64,000 bases of DNA. Origin: an uncultured Chitinophaga sp. GTDB taxonomy: Bacteria; Bacteroidota; Bacteroidia; Cytophagales; Cyclobacteriaceae. The notes beneath the pieces are model-generated. The model was not told the origin of the DNA. It made no database searches and saw only the letters and a list, made by a program, of their open reading frames with translations. The stretch spans positions 2,108,001-2,172,000 of the forward strand of contig CABHOK010000003.1 in NCBI GenBank assembly GCA_902168205.1, written 5' to 3'. The position numbers and the translations under genes were made by a program. Positions 27,092 to 38,962 of the stretch are shown one piece after another. Within the stretch, counting starts at the first letter, position 1. Each line of letters begins with the position of its first letter.

Positions 27092-28891
27092 ATGAGAAGA
27101 ATTTTTGTGTTCCTTTTTACAGTCGGCCTGCTGGCATGCTGTTCTAGATCAAAAGAGAAAATTCCACCAGTAATGCCTATGGAAAAGTCTTCAGGGAAGG
27201 TTGTCATATACCAGCTCATGACACGCCTTTTTGGAAATAAAAATACAACGAACAAACCCTATGGTACCATCGAAGAAAATGGTGTGGGTAAGTTTAACGA
27301 TATTAATCCGGCTGCACTGCGGTCGTTAAAAACAATGGGCATCACGCACGTGTGGTATACCGGTGTTATTGAACATGCTGTACTGACAGACTATACGAAA
27401 TATGGTATAGCACTGGACGATGCCGATGTAGTGAAAGGACGTGCCGGATCACCGTATGCTATCAAAGATTACTACGATGTTAATCCCGATCTGGCCAACG
27501 ATGTTGCCAATCGCATGACTGAGTTTGAACACCTGGTAGATCGCACGCATGCCGAAGGTTTAAAAGTGATCATCGACTTTGTACCGAACCATGTAGCGCG
27601 CTCCTATAAATCGGATAAGAAACCGGCCGGTGTAAAAGACCTCGGTGAAACCGATGATAAAAATGTAGCGTTCAGTGCCTCGAATAATTTTTACTATTTA
27701 CCCGGACAATCATTCCATGTACCGGCAGGCTATAAACCGCTTGGCCCGAATGCATTCCCCACGCTTGATGGTAAATATGATGAGACACCTGCGAAAGTTA
27801 CGGGCAACGATCAGTTTACAGCAAGCCCTGGAGTAAACGAATGGTTTGAGACCGTAAAACTGAATTACGGTGTAGACATTCAGAACGGGCGCAGAACATT
27901 TTTCGATCCGGTGCCTGACACGTGGGTAAAGATGAAAGATATACTGGTGTTCTGGGCGAATAAAAAAGTCGATGGCTTTCGCTGCGATATGGCCGAGATG
28001 GTGCCGGTTGAATTCTGGAACTGGGCTATACCACAGGTGAAGGAAGTAAATAAAGATATAGTCTTCATTGCCGAGATATATAACCCGGCACAGTACAACA
28101 ACTACATCAACAACGGTCAGTTCGATTACCTGTATGATAAGGTGCAGCTATACGATACATTGCGTTTACTGGTGCGCGGTGAGCGTAGCACAGCTGATAT
28201 CCATGCTATATACCAGACACAGGAGAATATACACCCGAACATGCTGCACTTCCTGGAGAACCACGATGAACAACGCATCGCGTCACCGTTCTTCGCGGGC
28301 GATCCGTGGAAAGCTATACCAGCCATGGTGATCAGCGCTACATTGGACAATGGTCCGGTAATGATATACTTTGGACAAGAGGTAGGAGAGGCCGGTGCCG
28401 GTGCCGAAGGATTTTCAAGTGAAGATGGTCGCACCACCATCTTTGATTACTGGGGTGTACCTCAACATCAGAAATGGATGAACGGTGGCAAGTTCGATGG
28501 CGACTCGCTGTCGATGGAACAGAAACAGCTTCGTTCATTCTATAGCGACCTGTTAACGCTGTCCTCTAAAAATCCTGCGCTGGTGGATGGTGAATATGCA
28601 GACCTGACAGCATCCAATATAGCAGCTGGTAATTTTACCGATAAAGTACACGCCTTTATGCGCTTCGCTGGCGAGGAACGGTTGCTGATACTGACGAGCT
28701 TTAACGCTGCACCGCTCCCGGTAAAAGTGCAGGTGCCCAAAGATATATTTACCCGTGCCGGATTAGACCCGGCCGCAAACTATATAGCCCGCGACTTGTT
28801 ATGGAGGGAGGCAGAGGTTGGTTTCGACCAGAACCTCGCGTTTCAATTAACACTGAAACCCTATAGCTCGTTTATCTTCAAGATAAAATAG
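27092..28891 (+). CDS. GH13 alpha-amylase-family lipoprotein
   Basis: 599 aa. Lipoprotein signal (MRRIFVFLFTVGLLACC), so the enzyme acts in the periplasm or on the cell surface. The (beta/alpha)8 catalytic domain keeps all GH13 regions: region I VIIDFVPNHV, nucleophile D299 in GFRCDMAEM, acid/base E328 in FIAEIYNP and transition-state stabiliser D392 in ENHDEQRI. A C-terminal beta domain follows (~510-599). It should release maltose or short maltodextrins from alpha-glucan. As first gene of the glgE locus it is a plausible source of maltose for the maltokinase two genes later. Confidence 0.88.
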   Translation: MRRIFVFLFTVGLLACCSRSKEKIPPVMPMEKSSGKVVIYQLMTRLFGNKNTTNKPYGTIEENGVGKFNDINPAALRSLKTMGITHVWYTGVIEHAVLTDYTKYGIALDDADVVKGRAGSPYAIKDYYDVNPDLANDVANRMTEFEHLVDRTHAEGLKVIIDFVPNHVARSYKSDKKPAGVKDLGETDDKNVAFSASNNFYYLPGQSFHVPAGYKPLGPNAFPTLDGKYDETPAKVTGNDQFTASPGVNEWFETVKLNYGVDIQNGRRTFFDPVPDTWVKMKDILVFWANKKVDGFRCDMAEMVPVEFWNWAIPQVKEVNKDIVFIAEIYNPAQYNNYINNGQFDYLYDKVQLYDTLRLLVRGERSTADIHAIYQTQENIHPNMLHFLENHDEQRIASPFFAGDPWKAIPAMVISATLDNGPVMIYFGQEVGEAGAGAEGFSSEDGRTTIFDYWGVPQHQKWMNGGKFDGDSLSMEQKQLRSFYSDLLTLSSKNPALVDGEYADLTASNIAAGNFTDKVHAFMRFAGEERLLILTSFNAAPLPVKVQVPKDIFTRAGLDPAANYIARDLLWREAEVGFDQNLAFQLTLKPYSSFIFKIK

Positions 28892-28972: not shown

Positions 28973-30919
28973 ATGCAAGAACACAGAGGACAGTCCAGAG
29001 TAATGATTGAAAACGTGCAGCCGCAGGTAGACGGAGGGTTGTACGCGGCAAAGCGAACCGTTGGTGAACGGGTAGATGTTACGGCTGATATATTTGGCGA
29101 TGGTCATGATCACATCCGCGCGCACGTATGGTATAAACGCGATGGTGATGCCGAATGGAGTATTGTGGAGATGCTGCCTGTAATGAACGATTCATGGAAG
29201 GGTTCTTTTTACGTGCAGCAAAGAGGTATATATCTGTTTACTGTGGTAGCGTGGGTAGATCATCTCGAAACCTGGTATGACGGATTCAAAAAGAAAGCAG
29301 CTGCGCATGTTGATGTAAGAACAGAATTGCTCGAAGGCGTTATCATGCTGAAGAAACTCGCTGGCGATAGGAATAATGAACTGCAGCACGCAGCTAAAAA
29401 ACTCGAAGAGCACTATAACGCAGCCGTGGAGCATGTACTCAGCGAAGAGTTTAAAGAAATCGTGCATCATTACCCGCTTATTGAATTCGAAACACAGTAT
29501 GATAAAGTACTGCCGGTGGTAGTAGAGCATAAAAAAGCAAACTTCTCTACCTGGTATGAATTGTTTCCACGGTCCGCATCGCTCGAAGGTAAACACGGAA
29601 CGTTTCAGGATGTTATCAAACTGTTGCCGCGTGTAGCGTCCATGGGTTTTGATGTACTGTATCTTCCGCCTATACATCCTATCGGTAAAGTAAACCGCAA
29701 GGGTAAAAATAACAATGTAAAGTCAGAGCCGGGCGAACCGGGTTCACCGTGGGCCATTGGCAGTGATGAAGGTGGACATAAATCTATACTCCCGGAGCTG
29801 GGCACGTTAGACGATTACAAACGACTGATCCAGGAGGCAAAAAAATATCACATCGATATAGCACTAGATCTTGCGTTTCAATGCGCGCCCGATCATCCGT
29901 ATGTAAAAGAACATCCCCAGTGGTTCAAACAACGTCCGGATGGAACGATACAGTATGCTGAAAATCCCCCGAAGAAATACCAGGATATATACCCTTTTAA
30001 TTTTGAGACAGACGACTGGATAGCGCTGTGGCAGGAGTTGAAATCGGTGATCACCTTCTGGATCGATCAGGGCGTACAAATATTCCGTGTCGATAATCCA
30101 CATACCAAGCCTATACCATTCTGGCAGTGGGCAATTGCCGAAGTGAATAAACTATATCCGGATATAATCTTCTTATCAGAAGCATTTACACGTCCGCGAA
30201 TCATGGCTTCGCTTGCCAAGATCGGGTTCACACAAGGTTATACATACTTTACCTGGCGCGTGAGTAAAGCCGAGCTGACGGAGTATATGAATGAGCTGGT
30301 ATACGGCCCATCGCGCAATTACTTCCGTCCGAATTTCTGGCCGAACACACCGGATATACTTCCGTGGCATTTGCAGCACCAGGGAGAGAATGTATTTATC
30401 ATCCGCTTTGCACTGGCCGCTACATTGTCATCCAACTATGGTATGTATGGTCCGGCCTACGAGTTCTACGACAACGTGCCGACGGAAGGCAAAGAAGAAT
30501 ACTATAATTCCGAGAAATACGAAATCAAGCAGCACGACTGGAAGCGCACCAATCGAATGACCGACATCATTACGATTGTAAACCGCGCGCGTAAAGAACA
30601 TGCCGCTCTTCAATCAACCTGGAACATTCATTTCTGTTTTATCGAGAATCCGAACCTCTTCGCGTATCTCAAAGCTACAGATGATCTTTCCAGCATTATA
30701 CTCGTTGTGGTAAATCTCGATCCGCATGGCCGTCAGTCAGGCTATGTACAATTACCCAAGCACATTCTGAACATCGGTGATCGCGTCAATGTAAAACTGC
30801 ATGACCTGATGACGGATGATCACTATACCTGGACACAGGAGTGGAACTATGTGGAGATCGATCCCTATAAAATGCCATTTCATTTGTTCAGACTGGCAGT
30901 ACACGAATCATATATGTAA
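28973..30919 (+). CDS. glgE: Alpha-1,4-glucan:maltose-1-phosphate maltosyltransferase
   Basis: 648 aa, typical GlgE length (GH13 subfamily 3). An N-terminal beta-sandwich and helical insert (~1-205) precede the catalytic barrel: FDVLYLPPIHPIGKVNRKGKN, DIALDLAFQCAPDHPYV, nucleophile D374 in FRVDNPHTKPIPFW and acid/base E403 in FLSEAFTRP. It extends linear alpha-1,4-glucan with maltosyl units from maltose 1-phosphate. The downstream gene, three bases away, encodes the maltokinase that makes the donor, and glgB adds branches. Cytoplasmic. Confidence 0.95.
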   Translation: MQEHRGQSRVMIENVQPQVDGGLYAAKRTVGERVDVTADIFGDGHDHIRAHVWYKRDGDAEWSIVEMLPVMNDSWKGSFYVQQRGIYLFTVVAWVDHLETWYDGFKKKAAAHVDVRTELLEGVIMLKKLAGDRNNELQHAAKKLEEHYNAAVEHVLSEEFKEIVHHYPLIEFETQYDKVLPVVVEHKKANFSTWYELFPRSASLEGKHGTFQDVIKLLPRVASMGFDVLYLPPIHPIGKVNRKGKNNNVKSEPGEPGSPWAIGSDEGGHKSILPELGTLDDYKRLIQEAKKYHIDIALDLAFQCAPDHPYVKEHPQWFKQRPDGTIQYAENPPKKYQDIYPFNFETDDWIALWQELKSVITFWIDQGVQIFRVDNPHTKPIPFWQWAIAEVNKLYPDIIFLSEAFTRPRIMASLAKIGFTQGYTYFTWRVSKAELTEYMNELVYGPSRNYFRPNFWPNTPDILPWHLQHQGENVFIIRFALAATLSSNYGMYGPAYEFYDNVPTEGKEEYYNSEKYEIKQHDWKRTNRMTDIITIVNRARKEHAALQSTWNIHFCFIENPNLFAYLKATDDLSSIILVVVNLDPHGRQSGYVQLPKHILNIGDRVNVKLHDLMTDDHYTWTQEWNYVEIDPYKMPFHLFRLAVHESYM

Positions 30920-30922
30920 CAC

Positions 30923-33900
30923 ATGAGTACACCTATCAAATCCGGAGAACCTCTTTGGTTTAAGGACGCAGTCATTTACGAAGTATCGGTTCGCGCATTT
31001 TACGATAGCAATGGCGATGGTATAGGAGATTTTCCCGGGTTGATCCAGAAGCTGGATTATCTCGAAGATCTTGGTATCAATACCTTGTGGTTACTGCCAT
31101 TCTATCCATCACCGTTAAAAGATGATGGCTTTGACGTGTCCGATCATACCGATGTCCATCCGGATTATGGTACACTCGCTGACTTCAAACAATTTCTGAA
31201 AGAAGCACACCGCAGAGGTATACGCGTTATCATTGAACTTATACTCAATCATACGTCCGATCAGCATCCGTGGTTCAAGCGCTCGCGCAAAGCGAAGGCA
31301 GGCTCACGCTATCGCGATCTCTATGTATGGAGTGATACGACCGATCGCTACAAAGAAGCGCGTGTCATGTTCTCCGATGCCGAAGCATCCAACTGGACAT
31401 GGGACACCGAAGCGCGCGCCTACTACTGGCATCGTTTCTACCGCCATCAACCCGAGTTGAACTTCGAGAATGCCGAAGTACAAATGGAAATGATCAAGGT
31501 GGTTGACTTCTGGATGAAGTTAGGTGTGGATGGATTTCGCTTAGGCTCGGTTGCTTTTCTCTTCGAAGAAGAAGGTACCAGCTGCGAGAACCTTCCGCAG
31601 ACACACGTGTTCCTCAAGAAGCTTCGTGCGCACATCGATAAGAACTATAAAGATAAAGTACTCATTGCCGAAGCCAACCTCTGGCCTGAAGATGCAGCAA
31701 CTTACTTTGGTGGAGGTGAAGAGTGCCACATGAACTTTAACTTTCCCCTGATGCCGCGCATGTTCCTCGCGCTGCGTACAGAAGACAGTTACCCGATTGT
31801 TGACATCATTGAGCAAACGCCTGTAACACCTCCCAATTGCCAGTGGGTTGTTTTCCTCCGGAACCACGATGAACTCGGTTTGGAAATGGTAACGGAAGAA
31901 GAGAAAGATTATTTACTCAAAGCCTATGCGAGCGATCCGAACTCCAAAGTAAATACCGGTATACGCAGACGTTTGGCTCCCATGCTGAACAACGATCGCA
32001 GAAAGATCGAGCTTTTATATACTATATTATTTTCATTGCCCGGTACACCAGTTATATACTATGGCGATGAAATCGGTATGGGCGATAATATATACCTGGG
32101 CGATCGCTTTGGTGTACGCACGCCCATGCAGTGGAACATGAACCTCAACGCAGGTTTCTCTACCGCGAACCCGCAGCGCTTGTTCCTGCCCATTATTACC
32201 GACCCGGTATATCGTTATGAATCTGTAAACGTGGCTACTGAAGAAGAGAATCCTTCTTCGCTGCTATGGTGGTTAAAACACGTTATGGCTATGCGCAAAC
32301 GCCTCAATATCTTCGGACGAGGCACCATGAAATTTATTGAGAGTAACAACGCCAAAGTGCTGGCCTTTGCGCGTACCGATGAGAAGCAACAGATCATCGT
32401 TGTGGCAAACCTTTCACAGTTTTCGCAGGCCGCTATATTGAATCTGGCCGAGTTCAGAGATTGTGATATGACGGAAGCATTCAGTCAGAATCGTTTCATG
32501 AATGTAGGCGATGGTGATTACCCGATTACCATTGGTCCTTATGGATACTTCTGGTTCCAGGCTGATACACCGGAGAAGAAAGAGAAAGCCGATGCCAGCG
32601 GAGAGTTACCGCTGATACGCACCGATATATCGTGGGAACGTTTACTCGATAACTATAACGAAGTACGTAACCTGGAACGAAAAATTCTGCCACCGTTCAT
32701 GCGTAAGTGCCGGTGGTTTGGCGGTAAAGCAAAAGTGATCAGCAAGATCGCTATTCATAAAACTATACCGATGAAGGTGGAGGGTGATACGCATTACCTC
32801 ACCATCATCGAAGTACATTACGTGCAGCGTTTGCCAGAGCTATATTTCCTGCCGCTCACCTTTGTGCCGTCTGATAATATCCTCGAGCGCGTGGAATATA
32901 CCGTGCAAAGTGTAGTGTGCCGTGCCGAGATACAGGGCCGTTCCGGCTTTATCATGGATAGCAGTTACGATAAAGTTTTCCGCGACTTCCTGTTCATGAG
33001 CATGGAGAAAGAAGTGCGGTTGAAAGATGACAGTGGTGGCGAACTTGAATTCAACTCAAGTGTATTTGCCAAACTGGGCAAGAATAAAAAAGTAGACTCG
33101 AAGATCCTGAAGACCGATCAGAGTAACACCGCGATCATCTATAATGACGAGTACTTCTTCAAGTTCTATCGTAAATTGGAGAAAGAGATTAATCCTGATC
33201 TGGAAATTATCCGCTTCTTATCCGAGCATACTACATTTCAGAACTGTCCTAAATATGCGGGCAGCATTGAGTATCACGATAGCGAAGGCAACACGATTGT
33301 ATTCGGATTGCTGCAGGAGAAAGTAGAGAACCAGGGTGAAGCGTGGGCGATGTCTGTGGATTCAGTCGGGCGTTTCTATGAGCGTGTAATGGCGAAAGGT
33401 AAAGCAGTAAAATTACCCAAGCTCATCAACCGTTCTGCTATAAAATTTGAAGACTCACCGGAGATCATACAGGAGTTGATTGGTCGTGGTTTCTATGAAC
33501 GCATTGTGCGTTTAGGACAACGCACTGCCGAGATGCATATAGCGCTCGCGTCTGATGCATCAAACCCTGCTTTTACAACCGAGAAGTTTACAGCAAACTA
33601 CCAGCGCTCCATGTATTCATCGTTGCGTAAAATGGTGCGCGATCGTTTCAGCCTGCTGGAGGCTACATTGCCCAAACTTGATCCGCAGGTACAGGAGCTT
33701 GCTAAAAAGATACTCGCACTGGAAGATGATATACTCGAGTGCTTCAGCGAAATATACCAGGTAAAGATTACAGCCGTTAAAACACGTATCCACGGCGATT
33801 ACCATTTGGGACAAGTGTTGTTTACGGGTAAAGATTTTGTGATCATTGATTTCGAGGGCGAACCGGGGCTGGCTTTCAGTGAAAGACGTTTGAAACGCAG

Positions 33901-34267
33901 TCCGCTGAAAGACGTAGCGGGTATGATGCGCTCCATTCACTATGCAGCCTTCGGAAAAATATTGCTCAACGAAAATTACCGCGACCGCGACCTGGAGTTC
34001 CTGGAATCATGGGCAGAACAGTGGCAACACTATATCGGGCGCTATTATTTAGGATCCTACATGGATCGTATGGGAATGGGCACGGTATTATCGGAAGAGC
34101 ATGATATCCTGCTGAGGACATTTCTACTCGAAAAGGCGATCTATGAACTTGGCTATGAGCTGAACGGTCGTCCGGATTGGACAGTAATTCCACTGCGGGG
34201 GATTTACTATCACATGAAGCGGTTCCAGGAGGAGAAGGAGGAGAGGAAGGAGACAAGGAAGAAGTGA
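30923..34267 (+). CDS. treS: TreS-Pep2 fusion: trehalose-synthase-like domain (nucleophile lost) + maltokinase
   Basis: 1114 aa. Residues ~10-560 are a TreS-type GH13 domain; ~600-1105 are a Pep2/maltokinase domain (FMRKCRWFGGKAK, IHGDYHLGQVLFTGKDFVIIDFEGEPG, the kinase-like catalytic loop and DFE metal motif). TreS interconverts trehalose and maltose; Pep2 phosphorylates maltose for GlgE. Oddity: region II reads GFRLG208SVAFL where family members have GFRLD, so the catalytic nucleophile is absent. Region I has E105 in place of Asp, and NMNLNAGFS replaces the usual SPDRNAGFS. E250 and D316 remain. The TreS half is probably inactive or altered; the kinase half looks intact. Three bases separate it from glgE. 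Confidence 0.9.
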   Translation: MSTPIKSGEPLWFKDAVIYEVSVRAFYDSNGDGIGDFPGLIQKLDYLEDLGINTLWLLPFYPSPLKDDGFDVSDHTDVHPDYGTLADFKQFLKEAHRRGIRVIIELILNHTSDQHPWFKRSRKAKAGSRYRDLYVWSDTTDRYKEARVMFSDAEASNWTWDTEARAYYWHRFYRHQPELNFENAEVQMEMIKVVDFWMKLGVDGFRLGSVAFLFEEEGTSCENLPQTHVFLKKLRAHIDKNYKDKVLIAEANLWPEDAATYFGGGEECHMNFNFPLMPRMFLALRTEDSYPIVDIIEQTPVTPPNCQWVVFLRNHDELGLEMVTEEEKDYLLKAYASDPNSKVNTGIRRRLAPMLNNDRRKIELLYTILFSLPGTPVIYYGDEIGMGDNIYLGDRFGVRTPMQWNMNLNAGFSTANPQRLFLPIITDPVYRYESVNVATEEENPSSLLWWLKHVMAMRKRLNIFGRGTMKFIESNNAKVLAFARTDEKQQIIVVANLSQFSQAAILNLAEFRDCDMTEAFSQNRFMNVGDGDYPITIGPYGYFWFQADTPEKKEKADASGELPLIRTDISWERLLDNYNEVRNLERKILPPFMRKCRWFGGKAKVISKIAIHKTIPMKVEGDTHYLTIIEVHYVQRLPELYFLPLTFVPSDNILERVEYTVQSVVCRAEIQGRSGFIMDSSYDKVFRDFLFMSMEKEVRLKDDSGGELEFNSSVFAKLGKNKKVDSKILKTDQSNTAIIYNDEYFFKFYRKLEKEINPDLEIIRFLSEHTTFQNCPKYAGSIEYHDSEGNTIVFGLLQEKVENQGEAWAMSVDSVGRFYERVMAKGKAVKLPKLINRSAIKFEDSPEIIQELIGRGFYERIVRLGQRTAEMHIALASDASNPAFTTEKFTANYQRSMYSSLRKMVRDRFSLLEATLPKLDPQVQELAKKILALEDDILECFSEIYQVKITAVKTRIHGDYHLGQVLFTGKDFVIIDFEGEPGLAFSERRLKRSPLKDVAGMMRSIHYAAFGKILLNENYRDRDLEFLESWAEQWQHYIGRYYLGSYMDRMGMGTVLSEEHDILLRTFLLEKAIYELGYELNGRPDWTVIPLRGIYYHMKRFQEEKEERKETRKK

Positions 34268-34364: not shown

Positions 34365-34458
34365 ATATATAGCAGGGTGAGGAGGGATGTGCGAGCTGAA
34401 TGGTATAGCGACTCTTACTTTTGTATTGGTAATTTTTTTAGAAGCAATCCACGGCACC

Positions 34459-36441
34459 ATGGCAAAGAAAACGAAACAGACTGAAAGCACTCCGGTAGTT
34501 GATGACGGGCATTTCAGTTTATTTACAGAGTATGATATATACCTGTTCAAATCAGGTAAACATTACAAGTTGTATGAAAAGATGGGTGCGCACGTTGTTA
34601 CACACAACGGTGTGGAAGGAACCTACTTCGCGGTGTGGGCTCCGAATGCTCGGGTGGTATCGGTAATCGGATATTTCAACCACTGGCGTGATGGTGTACA
34701 TAAACTCAGTGCACGCTGGGATCACTCCGGTGTATGGGAAGGTTTCTTTCCGGATATAAAACATGGCGAGGCCTATAAATACGCTATATATTCCAATACA
34801 GGCGACTTTGTAGAGAAGGCTGATCCGTTTGCCGCGTATGCAGAAACTCCGCCTCGCACGGCTTCTATTGTGTGGGAGCCCAAGTATGAATGGAAAGACC
34901 AGGAGTGGCTGGAACACCGCAGACAACTCGCGGGTAAACCGAAGCCTTACTCGGTTTATGAAGTACACTTTGGTTCGTGGAGGCGCAAGACGGAAGAGAA
35001 CAACCGCGCATTGACGTATCCGGAGATGGCGCATGAACTCGTGGACTATGTAAAGGATCTGGGCTTTACGCACGTGGAGTTTCTTCCGTTGATGGAACAC
35101 CCGTTCTATGGCTCATGGGGCTATCAGCTCACAGGATATTTTGCTCCGACAAGTCGCTATGGTAGTCCGGAGGATTTCATGTATATGGTGGATTGTTTCC
35201 ATCGGGCCGGTATAGGTGTTATACTCGATTGGGTGCCTTCTCATTTTCCGGGCGATGCACACGGCCTCTATAAATTTGATGGCACGCATCTCTATGAACA
35301 TGCCGATCCACGAAAAGGATTTCACCCCGACTGGAAGAGCTATATATTTAACTATGGTCGTAATGAAGTCCGGTCGTTCCTCATTAGCAATGCGATGTTC
35401 TGGATGGAGCGTTATCACATTGACGGACTTCGCGTAGATGCTGTGGCATCCATGCTATACCTCGATTACTCGCGCAAGGATGGCGAGTGGATTGCGAATG
35501 AATACGGAGGTAATGAAAACCTCGAAGCGATATCGTTCCTGAAAGAGATGAACGAAGCGGTGTATAAAGATTTTCCCGATGCTGTAACGATCGCGGAAGA
35601 GTCAACTTCGTGGACGGGTGTCTCAAGGCCAACCTATATCGGTGGGCTCGGCTTCGGACAAAAATGGATGATGGGATGGATGCATGATACGCTTCACTTT
35701 TTCCAACTTGATCCCGTTCATCGCAAGTATCATCACAATGAAATCACATTTAGTATAATTTACGCGTTCACCGAAAACTTCATGTTGCCGCTGTCGCACG
35801 ATGAAGTGGTGCATGGCAAAGGATCTATACTCGGAAAAATGCCGGGTGACGAGTGGCGTAAGTTTGCCAACCTGCGTTTGCTGTATGGCTATATGTTCAT
35901 GCACCCCGGAACAAAACTTTTGTTCATGGGAGGTGAATTTGGACAATCATCGGAGTGGTCGCATGAGCGGAGTCTCGACTGGCATTTGCTGCAATACGAT
36001 GTACACAAAGGTGTGCAGACGCTGATGCGCGACCTCAACGCGTTCTATAAAAACGAACCAGCTCTCTACCAGCACGCATTTGATAACAAAGGTTTCCGAT
36101 GGATCGACTATGGCGATCGCGACAACAGTGTGATCGCTTTCCAACGTTTGAGTGATCATAAAGAAGACTTGCTCGTGGTGGTGTGTAATTTTACTCCGGA
36201 GGTTCGTTATCACTATCGTATCGGTGTACCGTATCGCGGACAGTGGAAAGAAGTATTCAATTCTGATCTGAAACGTTATAACGGAGGTGATGTAATAAAT
36301 TCAGGTTTAATACCAACTTCGCCAGTTAAATATCATGGGCAGGATTACTCCATTTCATTAACTTTACCTCCGCTCGCGATCACGGTTCTGAAGCTCGAAA
36401 GAGAATTGAACGAGTTTGAGCTGAAAGACATTGGAACATAA
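34459..36441 (+). CDS. glgB: 1,4-alpha-glucan branching enzyme
   Basis: 660 aa from the ATG at 34459 (MAKKTKQTES); the frame opens at 34387, but the added residues form a non-homologous hydrophobic stretch next to the heptamer array. CBM48 domain (~35-140; GTYFAVWAPNARVVSVIGYFNHW) and GH13_9 barrel: THVEFLPLMEHPFYGSWGYQ, GLRVD327AVASMLYLDYSRKDGEW (nucleophile), IAEE380ST region (acid/base) and LSHDEVVHGKGS. C-terminal beta domain follows. It introduces alpha-1,6 branches into the GlgE-made glucan. Confidence 0.93.
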   Translation: MAKKTKQTESTPVVDDGHFSLFTEYDIYLFKSGKHYKLYEKMGAHVVTHNGVEGTYFAVWAPNARVVSVIGYFNHWRDGVHKLSARWDHSGVWEGFFPDIKHGEAYKYAIYSNTGDFVEKADPFAAYAETPPRTASIVWEPKYEWKDQEWLEHRRQLAGKPKPYSVYEVHFGSWRRKTEENNRALTYPEMAHELVDYVKDLGFTHVEFLPLMEHPFYGSWGYQLTGYFAPTSRYGSPEDFMYMVDCFHRAGIGVILDWVPSHFPGDAHGLYKFDGTHLYEHADPRKGFHPDWKSYIFNYGRNEVRSFLISNAMFWMERYHIDGLRVDAVASMLYLDYSRKDGEWIANEYGGNENLEAISFLKEMNEAVYKDFPDAVTIAEESTSWTGVSRPTYIGGLGFGQKWMMGWMHDTLHFFQLDPVHRKYHHNEITFSIIYAFTENFMLPLSHDEVVHGKGSILGKMPGDEWRKFANLRLLYGYMFMHPGTKLLFMGGEFGQSSEWSHERSLDWHLLQYDVHKGVQTLMRDLNAFYKNEPALYQHAFDNKGFRWIDYGDRDNSVIAFQRLSDHKEDLLVVVCNFTPEVRYHYRIGVPYRGQWKEVFNSDLKRYNGGDVINSGLIPTSPVKYHGQDYSISLTLPPLAITVLKLERELNEFELKDIGT

Positions 36442-36568: not shown

Positions 36569-38962
36569 TTGGAAAAGTACATTTGTATTCACGGACATTT
36601 TTACCAGCCACCCCGTGAAAATGCCTGGCTAGAGGTAATTGAGGTCCAGGATTCAGCACATCCCTATCACGACTGGAATGAACGCATCTCGGCAGAGTGT
36701 TATGGGCCCAACGCGGCTTCGCGTATACTCAACGAGAAGGGCGTTATCAAAAATATAATCAATAATTACTCGCGCATCAGTTTTAACTTCGGTGCTACGT
36801 TGCTCTCGTGGATGCAGGTATATGATCGAGAAACATACGATGCTATCATTGAAGCCGATCGCGAAAGCGTGAAGAACTTTGGAGGCCATGGTTCTGCCAT
36901 GGCGCAGGTATATAATCACATCATTCTTCCGTTAGCGAATAAGCGCGATAAAGAGACACAGATCATCTGGGGCATCCGCGATTTCATTTCGCGCTTCGGA
37001 CGTTTGCCCGAAGGCATGTGGCTCGCGGAGACAGCGGTAGATGTAGAGTCGCTGGAGCTGCTTGTAAAACATGGAATCAAATTTACCGTACTCGCGCCAC
37101 GCCAGGCTAAAGCTATACGCAAACTCGGTGATACCAAATGGAGCGATGTTACAACGGAGAGCCTGGACACACGAAGACCCTATACCTGTAAATTACCTTC
37201 CGGGAAAAGTATAGCGCTATTCTTTTACGATGGACAGATCGCACAGGGTGTAGCCTTTGATGGCCTGCTATACGATGGTAAAAAGTTTGCCGATCGTTTA
37301 CTCGGGTCGTTTGCTGATCGCAGTGAAGCACAACTTGTACATATTGCTACGGATGGCGAAACGTACGGTCATCATCACAAACACGGCGACATGGCGTTGG
37401 CGTTTTGTCTTGATCATATTGAGCGGAATTCCGAATCGAGTCTCACCAACTACGCAGAATTCCTCGCGAAATTTCCACCGGTTTACGAAGCCATGATTCA
37501 CGAAAACAGTTCGTGGAGTTGTGTGCATGGTGTAGAGCGCTGGCGTAATGACTGCGGCTGTAATTCAGGAGGTAAACCGAACTGGAATCAACGCTGGCGT
37601 AAACCGCTACGCGAATCATTGGACTGGCTGCGCGATGAGCTCGGATTGATCTTCGAACGCGAAGCTTCCAAAGTATTGAAAGATCCCTGGAAAGCACGCG
37701 AAGACTATATCAATGTTATACTCGAGCGAAACGATGATAACATTCGAAAATTTTTAAAAGAACATTGCCTGCGCGATGTGGAGCAGAACCATGTACTCCG
37801 CCTCATGGAAGTACAGCGTCATGCCATGCTGATGTATACCAGTTGTGGCTGGTTCTTTGATGAGATCTCCGGCATTGAGACAACGCAGATCATGCAGTAC
37901 GCATGTCGCGCGATACAGTTGGTGAGTCAGATCAGCGAGACACACCTCGAAGAAGATTTCCTCAAACGACTTGTAACAGCACCCAGCAATGTGTCTTCGC
38001 TGGAGAACGGTGCGCAGATATACCGCAAGTATGTACTGCCTGCTAAAACAAACCTGCAGCGTGTGGGTATGCACTATGCTGTGGCTTCCATCTTTGAAGA
38101 AGATCCCGAATCATTCCCGGTATTCAACTATACTACGCAAAATGAAATCTTTATTCGTAAAGAGGCCGGTGAACAAAAGCTTGTGATAGGGGTAACGCGT
38201 GTACGCTCGAATGTAACACGTTCGCAGAAGAAGTTCGCGTTTGCCGTTATATACATGGGCCAGCATAATATTATCGGTAATATATCCCTGGATATGGATG
38301 CCGATATATTTACAACGATGCAGGAACAGGTCGTAAAAGCATTTGACGAAGGTCGTCTCGGAGATATTATCGGGTTGATGCAAACATACTTTGGCTCAGA
38401 GAAATATACCATCTGGCAATTGTTCCAGGATGAGAAGCGGAAGGTATTCAACCTGATCACGCAGCAGAGTATGAATGACCTTGAAGAATCGCTGCGCAGA
38501 ATATACAACCGCGATTACCCGCTGGTAAATGCACTTGCCAACAACGATACGCCTATACCAAACGCGTACCGAACTACCTTTGAGTATATATTGAATGCCG
38601 ACCTGGTTCGTTGTTTCCAAACCGACAAGATTAACATACGCCAGGTGGAGCGCATCATGAGTGAGTTGTCCAAATGGAAACTCGCCATTGAAGACACCGG
38701 AAGGGTAGAGCGACTGGCTGGTGAAAGTATATTCAAGGAATTGAAACGTATCCATGCCGAAGGCCAGACGATAAGACGTATTGAACGCCTGAACCGGTTG
38801 TTCCCGCTGTTGCGTGATTTCAAGATCAACCCGAATCTGTATAAGACACAAAATCTTTATTTCGAAATGTCGGTGCAGCATAAGGAACATAACGGTCATA
38901 CCGCAGAGTGGATCAAACAGTTCGGACTGTTGGGCGACAATCTGGGCGTTAAAGTCGATTAG
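36569..38962 (+). CDS. GH57-type / DUF3536 alpha-glucan-active protein
   Basis: 797 aa from a TTG start at 36569, since the conserved N-terminus EKYICIHGHFYQPPRENAWLE begins at once. The GH57 barrel occupies ~1-330 (GRLPEGMWLAETAVDVESLELL, HIATDGETYGHHHKHGD) and the DUF3536 region ~290-600, with ENSSWSCVHGVERWRNDCGCN. Cytoplasmic. GH57 members include amylases, branching and debranching enzymes; this subgroup is uncharacterised to my knowledge but often lies in glucan-storage loci. It may trim or branch the GlgE product. About 125 bp separates it from glgB. Confidence 0.85.
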   Translation: MEKYICIHGHFYQPPRENAWLEVIEVQDSAHPYHDWNERISAECYGPNAASRILNEKGVIKNIINNYSRISFNFGATLLSWMQVYDRETYDAIIEADRESVKNFGGHGSAMAQVYNHIILPLANKRDKETQIIWGIRDFISRFGRLPEGMWLAETAVDVESLELLVKHGIKFTVLAPRQAKAIRKLGDTKWSDVTTESLDTRRPYTCKLPSGKSIALFFYDGQIAQGVAFDGLLYDGKKFADRLLGSFADRSEAQLVHIATDGETYGHHHKHGDMALAFCLDHIERNSESSLTNYAEFLAKFPPVYEAMIHENSSWSCVHGVERWRNDCGCNSGGKPNWNQRWRKPLRESLDWLRDELGLIFEREASKVLKDPWKAREDYINVILERNDDNIRKFLKEHCLRDVEQNHVLRLMEVQRHAMLMYTSCGWFFDEISGIETTQIMQYACRAIQLVSQISETHLEEDFLKRLVTAPSNVSSLENGAQIYRKYVLPAKTNLQRVGMHYAVASIFEEDPESFPVFNYTTQNEIFIRKEAGEQKLVIGVTRVRSNVTRSQKKFAFAVIYMGQHNIIGNISLDMDADIFTTMQEQVVKAFDEGRLGDIIGLMQTYFGSEKYTIWQLFQDEKRKVFNLITQQSMNDLEESLRRIYNRDYPLVNALANNDTPIPNAYRTTFEYILNADLVRCFQTDKINIRQVERIMSELSKWKLAIEDTGRVERLAGESIFKELKRIHAEGQTIRRIERLNRLFPLLRDFKINPNLYKTQNLYFEMSVQHKEHNGHTAEWIKQFGLLGDNLGVKVD

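Follow-up and report, generated by a model that had tools for sequence, protein, structure and literature searches.

Why would a bacterial lineage conserve, in the middle of a glucan-building operon, an enzyme domain that lacks its own catalytic nucleophile? The question is raised by a gene in a 64,000-nucleotide stretch of DNA (the window) from an uncultured Chitinophaga sp. that GTDB assigns to the Cyclobacteriaceae (assembly GCA_902168205.1, contig CABHOK010000003.1, positions 2,108,001 to 2,172,000). This gene (30923..34267, + strand, ATG start) encodes a 1114-aa fusion of a trehalose synthase (TreS)-like half to a maltokinase (Mak) half, which we call psiTreS-Mak. The fusion has the TreS fold and passes both the TreS model TIGR02456 (829 bits, cut-off 678) and the maltokinase model TIGR02457 (430 bits, cut-off 375); a TreS-like GH13 domain with a C-terminal beta domain occupies residues 12-550 (30956..32572, +) and the maltokinase domain residues 581-1094 (32663..34204, +). 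A first-pass annotation had noted that Region II of the GH13 domain reads GFRLGSVAFL, with the GGC codon at 31544..31546 (+) specifying Gly208 at the place of the nucleophile Asp. Codon and alignment agree on this point: the PDB trehalose synthases 5x7u, 5h2t, and 4lxf all have Asp at the aligned site, and the window fusion thus departs from TreS (GH13_16) at the nucleophile itself. The acid/base E250 and the third acid D316 are present, as previously read, and the Mak half retains its ATP-binding Lys (K747), catalytic Asp (D959), and Mg-binding Gln and Asp (Q964, D976). From the absent nucleophile, we infer with high confidence that the TreS half has no catalytic activity.

What had been seen in one gene holds much more generally. 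When a named collection of loci was combined with fusions from further genomes of the family and order, and identical sequences were removed, the Asp was missing from all 83 distinct sequences of one clade (Pro in 31, Ala in 27, Ser in 17, Gly in 8) and present in all 99 other fusions, here called active-type. In the named collection itself, it is absent from all 68 loci with at least 63% identity (P25, A23, S14, G6), and it is found in 12 more distant loci and in one unrelated GH13 protein of locus L046. The 68 loci come from Ohtaekwangia koreensis, Chryseolinea, Dawidia, Parachryseolinea, Pseudochryseolinea, and many metagenome-assembled genomes labelled Cytophagales, Cyclobacteriaceae, Flammeovirgaceae, or Bacteroidetes. 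On a FastTree phylogeny of 77 representatives, the nucleophile trait changed once, and the 19 clade rows formed one group with an SH-like support of 100; within the clade, the tree used calls for 20 or more switches of residue 208 between P, A, S, and G, and for none to D. A sample of 291 genomes of the order gave 49 with a match at 1e-150, of which eight were clade members, all from the window's own family; the 41 matching genomes of other families all have Asp. Furthermore, at least nine genera of this family (g1, g16, g18, g25, g34, g37, g45, g66, g84) diverged after the loss. Tree and survey together place a single loss of the nucleophile at the root of one old Cytophagales clade, and the first-pass proposal that the TreS half is a pseudo-enzyme is thereby strongly supported as a prediction.

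Two further residues had been cited in favor of that proposal, with different outcomes. Glu105, taken as a defect of Region I, is an ordinary residue, being Glu in 99/99 active-type fusions and in 82/83 clade sequences (Ala in L205), and it should be dropped from the argument. By contrast, the NMNLNAGFS block, which is read in the window fusion in place of an Arg-bearing one, reflects a clade-wide change: at residue 408, where RNAGFS has its Arg, all 99 active-type fusions carry R or K and all 83 clade sequences carry L, I, V, S, Q, or M. Low AlphaFold confidence near the catalytic loops of the window fusion (314-318, 336-350, 387-435) was considered as a sign of a disturbed pocket and rejected. 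The active-type fusion P0002, modelled as a control with the same set of 48 sequences, is weak in almost identical places (316-329, 342-352, 389-403, 409-415, 417-436), and the weak loops are consequently uninformative about the missing Asp.

The clade fusion sits in an operon of its own kind. In the window, it is preceded on the same strand by amyU (27092..28891), a GH13 alpha-amylase-like gene (PF00128) of 599 aa with an intact catalytic triad and a lipoprotein-type N-terminus (LLAC, judged by eye), and by glgE (28973..30919; PF11896, PF21702), encoding a 648-aa maltose-1-phosphate maltosyltransferase with nucleophile and acid/base intact. It is followed by glgB (34387..36441, +; NF003811, 980 bits), for the branching enzyme, and by a GH57/DUF3536 gene (36569..38962, +; PF12055, PF03065). 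With glgE and glgB adjoining it, the fusion belongs to a GlgE pathway operon, and the order in the clade is a lipoprotein-type GH13, often a second GH13 (~515 aa; the one tested, from L046, has a SusG-type C-terminal domain), glgE, the fusion, glgB, and GH57/DUF3536. Among distinct clade loci with enough flanking sequence, glgE lies upstream in 57/58, amyU in 55/58, the second GH13 in 27/58, and either GH13 in 57/58, while glgB and the GH57 gene, a fixed member of the operon, lie downstream in 60/60. Clade locus L067 shows no glgE, but its 4 kb of upstream sequence is too short for this count. Active-type loci, in comparison, have glgE upstream in 19/28, an exported-type GH13 in 0/28, and glgB downstream in 18/27; classical operons in the same family read glgE-TreS(D)-Mak-glgB, with a divergent treZ in about half of those fetched. 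GlgE D374 and E403 are kept in 70/70 clade-type genes, the amyU Asp, Glu, and Asp are conserved across an alignment of the window copy to 59 homologues, and the four kinase residues are intact in 81/83 clade sequences. Thus, among the operon sites checked, only the catalytic site of TreS has been given up, and judged from sequence only, trehalose would not feed the operon through its own TreS. Just downstream, convergent genes for an ROK glucokinase, a phosphofructokinase, and a phosphoglucose isomerase were seen in L046 (19220-22932), L061 (19084-22768), and L071 (18665-22348), the Pfam families being assigned in L046 only.

Does the loss cut the entry of trehalose into the GlgE pathway, as the first-pass annotation had supposed? 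In the window genome it does not, because a search for another treS found an active-type TreS-Mak at C3:1224674-1228021, adjoining treX, treZ, and a treY-malQ fusion. (The same genome also has, at L003 1501-3108 (+), a 535-aa GH13 protein that is 41% identical to the TreS half, has GFRVDAVHIL as Region II, and scores 530 bits with TIGR02456, under the cut-off.) Elsewhere, the supposition is borne out by sequence. An active-type fusion, in some cases in pieces, is also carried by 19 of 56 clade genomes and not by the other 37; these 56 were taken by identity (59-100%), residue 208 being read in part of them. Marker genes were searched for in 45, of which nine have both fusions and 36 the dead copy only; at E 1e-90 or better, the TreS family is represented in each of these 36 by a single match, to the dead copy. 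TreY over its cut-off and MalQ were each found in exactly the nine two-copy genomes and in 0/36 of the others. OtsA-like genes, counted at E 1e-150 or better (the curated cut-off is exceeded in only 3/45 genomes), occur in 6/9 two-copy and 9/36 dead-copy-only genomes. Active TreS, TreY, and OtsA are consequently all missing from 27/36 dead-copy-only genomes, TreT and TreP not having been searched for. Glycogen synthase TIGR02095 reaches its cut-off in 0/45 genomes, with sub-cut-off matches in 44 and other GT4 synthases not excluded. Given the 36 genomes without TreY or MalQ, 27 of them also without OtsA, the GlgE operon of the clade seems to have been disconnected from trehalose and is probably supplied with maltose; since MalQ was not found, the operon's own GH13 amylases would be the nearest candidate source of that maltose.

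These findings have led to the explanation that we consider likely: the TreS half lost its nucleophile once and has been retained ever since as a folded domain without catalysis, partnering a working maltokinase in an operon fed by maltose. In this model, maltose would be freed by the exported-type GH13 amylase(s) heading the operon, imported, and phosphorylated by the Mak half, so that maltose 1-phosphate is made from maltose rather than trehalose; GlgE would then add it to glucan and GlgB would branch the product. The dead TreS half would hold the kinase in an active arrangement, by analogy with TreS and Pep2 in mycobacteria, and may still bind sugar. In the window genome, the second fusion, beside treX-treZ-treY, could still join trehalose to maltose 1-phosphate.

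A role as scaffold for the kinase, suggested in the first-pass annotation, is plausible from the retained fold, the conserved TreS domain, and a set of fusions that form its mirror image. At least one of the four kinase residues is lost in 26/99 active-type fusions whose TreS is intact; these degenerate kinases (L194, L197, L198, L200-L202, L243-L259, L112, L113, L117) come from several lineages, including Bradyrhizobium. None of the 22 that could be assessed adjoins glgE. Over both types, the kinase is degenerate in 0/126 fusions with a glgE match in the locus sequence and in 23/29 without one, after 27 of 182 rows with too little upstream sequence were dropped (active-type: 21 intact, 4 degenerate; clade: one of each). 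The rule runs in one direction only, since intact kinases without an adjoining glgE exist: six in all (L195, L199, L242, L107, L108, and clade locus L067), and in both the window genome and G264 the active-type copy has an intact kinase with no glgE among the neighboring open reading frames. At the level of whole genomes the rule is a loose one. Where GlgE is absent (n=15), the kinase is degenerate in 11 and not in four (G066, G003, G133, G461); where it is present (n=65), the kinase is degenerate in 13 genomes of one family and in one copy in G086, whose second copy is cut off before the kinase motifs. These counts are not independent by descent, with at least six changes of kinase state on the whole tree, two clade cases included. 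Among 17 clade genomes searched for GlgE, only G236 and G284 lack it, and both have damaged kinase residues. The clade fusions L205 and L206, from GlgE-less genomes, retain a dead TreS and a damaged kinase in one full-length open reading frame.

In G401 and G505, whose fused kinase is degenerate, a stand-alone maltokinase adjoins glgE (L268 5254-6903 (-); L269 11510-13132 (+)), an apparent division of labor. No stand-alone maltokinase was found within the 19 kb examined in G322 and G350, whose fused kinase is likewise degenerate. A glgE without TreS-Mak or maltokinase within 19 kb was seen at L266 7151-9205 (-) and L267 8272-10317 (+), the former next to a gene for a cyclopropane synthetase/methyltransferase-like protein. 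Each half seems to preserve its chemistry as long as the pathway partner is present, yet the fusion stays long either way. This pattern is the best indirect argument, short of experiment, that the two halves may depend on each other structurally.

However, several observations weigh against a maltose-fed operon with a pure scaffold. Where a genome has both fusions, the active-type one could still convert trehalose to maltose for the operon. Export of the amylases is predicted from their N-terminal sequence, and no maltose importer was recognized adjoining the operon in the seven loci inspected. For the mycobacterial TreS:Pep2 complex, Pep2 activity is described both as markedly raised and as modestly enhanced, and the two species differ (PMC6509496). 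The nonsynonymous-to-synonymous substitution ratio (dN/dS) of the TreS barrel in six close clade pairs (0.003-0.025) does not exceed that of three active-type pairs (0.021-0.042). Finally, the pocket is held more tightly than a pure scaffold requires: D71, N109, H110, R206, H315, D316, and R399 are invariant in 83/83 clade sequences, and E250 is Glu in 81/83, with Asp in two.

The last of these points leads to a rival that we regard as a real if minor possibility, that is, that the dead TreS half acts as a sensor of sugar, binding maltose or trehalose in an otherwise intact pocket and switching the kinase on or off. R147 and N252 are likewise invariant in 83/83, and residue 208 drifts only among small residues. 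Within the clade, TreS is more conserved than the kinase (mean identity 0.789 versus 0.740), and the dead TreS keeps more of its invariant set (0.851 of 244 positions) than do the degenerate kinases of the mirror fusions (0.718 of 70). However, TreS exceeds Mak in active-type fusions as well, E250 and Glu105 have the exceptions given above, and the same residues may be needed for folding; pocket retention was therefore rejected as proof of ligand binding. Of the 227 invariant TreS positions (those at least 97% conserved in 79 active-type fusions), only 30 are lost overall, as against 0 of 25 in the kinase, and the retention of a few pocket residues is to be expected at such a rate. A broader form of the idea, in which the lineage turned TreS into a non-catalytic, sugar-sensing regulator of the kinase and redirected the GlgE pathway so that it draws on exported amylases and maltose, is tentative and rather unlikely.

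The same loss of invariant positions could instead mean that the TreS half is merely decaying, carried along by its in-frame fusion to a needed kinase. Relative to Mak, TreS has diverged about twice as far in the clade (ratio 0.81) as in three active-type sets whose kinase is intact (0.36, 0.41, and 0.44), and dN/dS for Mak is 0.007-0.036 in clade pairs versus 0.084-0.113 in active-type pairs; constraint appears to have shifted from TreS to Mak, with TreS relaxed by the divergence ratio. Tried as a generalization, faster evolution of whichever half is dead gave a mixed result, as TreS:Mak ratios with degenerate kinases are 0.27 in one family and 0.43 in genus g83, the latter the same as in the intact sets. 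Decay is nevertheless improbable: 64 of 68 named clade loci keep an open reading frame of at least 1095 aa, the other four being cut by or ending near a contig end, and the identity and low dN/dS of the TreS half have persisted even though nine or more genera have diverged since the loss.

It is very improbable that the TreS half performs some other chemistry without the Asp, for instance transfer by an outside nucleophile as in a natural glycosynthase or inverting phosphorylase. The acid/base is kept, as is D316, and Gly, Ala, and Ser at the nucleophile position are the classical glycosynthase substitutions. However, 31/83 sequences have Pro there, the position has switched repeatedly among four residues, and no new acid combines closeness to 208 with presence throughout the clade. 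Acidic residues have been gained at 9, 77, 81, 141, 163, 185, 216, 441, 442, 473, 515, and 532; the closest, 216, is acidic in 84% of the clade, and Asp81 was rejected as a replacement acid, the same Asp being found in the active-type sequence 5x7u. Least of all can the case be laid to a sequencing or assembly error or to an Asp supplied from a shifted position, a negligible prospect with no supporting point, as Gly208 recurs in six separate public records (85-98% identity), the other 62/68 named loci have P, A, or S, and no acid has been gained within 7 residues of 208.

The preferred explanation, a kinase supported by a dead TreS half and fed by maltose, can be set beside known systems. Two routes to maltose 1-phosphate for GlgE are described in a review (PMC11046441): trehalose via TreS and maltokinase, and GlgM. 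The TreS-Mak or TreS-Pep2 fusions of Estrella lausannensis and Pseudomonas aeruginosa PAO1 share the domain order and the GlgE-pathway partners of the clade fusion, and both their halves are reported to be active (PMC7935935, PMC8084333); the clade fusion, unlike these, lacks the TreS nucleophile and has exported-type amylases in its operon. In P. aeruginosa, a trehalose-independent route to maltose 1-phosphate has been seen, for which MalQ-made maltose was proposed as the source (PMC8084333). The mycobacterial TreS:Pep2 complex differs in consisting of separate proteins with a catalytic TreS. A closer gene content is found in PUL18 of Pontibacter sp. SGAir0037, a GlgE cluster with GH13 amylases, TreS, GlgE, GlgB, and a GH57 protein that is reported as a probable 4-alpha-glucanotransferase (PMC11206854). 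However, this cluster also includes treY, treZ, and GH77, and thus a trehalose loop, and the likeness is one of gene content. Retention of a GH13-fold domain as part of a complex has a parallel in the heavy chains rBAT and 4F2hc, described as alpha-glucosidase-like proteins without shown activity, the active site of 4F2hc not being conserved (PMC8537225). These are animal amino-acid transporter subunits with no fused kinase and outside glucan synthesis, and rBAT retains the catalytic residues. No paper on a nucleophile-less TreS was found in the library of open-access full texts that was searched.

Standard annotation still names the dead copy a trehalose synthase: the NCBI TreS model labels every clade copy in the 45 genomes "maltose alpha-D-glucosyltransferase" (802-851 bits, cut-off 678). 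Because the model passes dead copies, genomes that may be unable to make trehalose are predicted to do so. Furthermore, the TreS-Mak partnership has been put to a test by nature itself: a dead TreS is joined to a live kinase in the clade, a live-type TreS to a degenerate kinase in other lineages, and the fusion is long both ways. The clade operon is an old, conserved type whose own trehalose step is dead by sequence, and maltose 1-phosphate must therefore come from elsewhere, most simply from maltose. These results suggest that cells of this lineage can build glycogen from maltose instead of trehalose, with the dead half of the fusion serving as a support or a sensor for the kinase.

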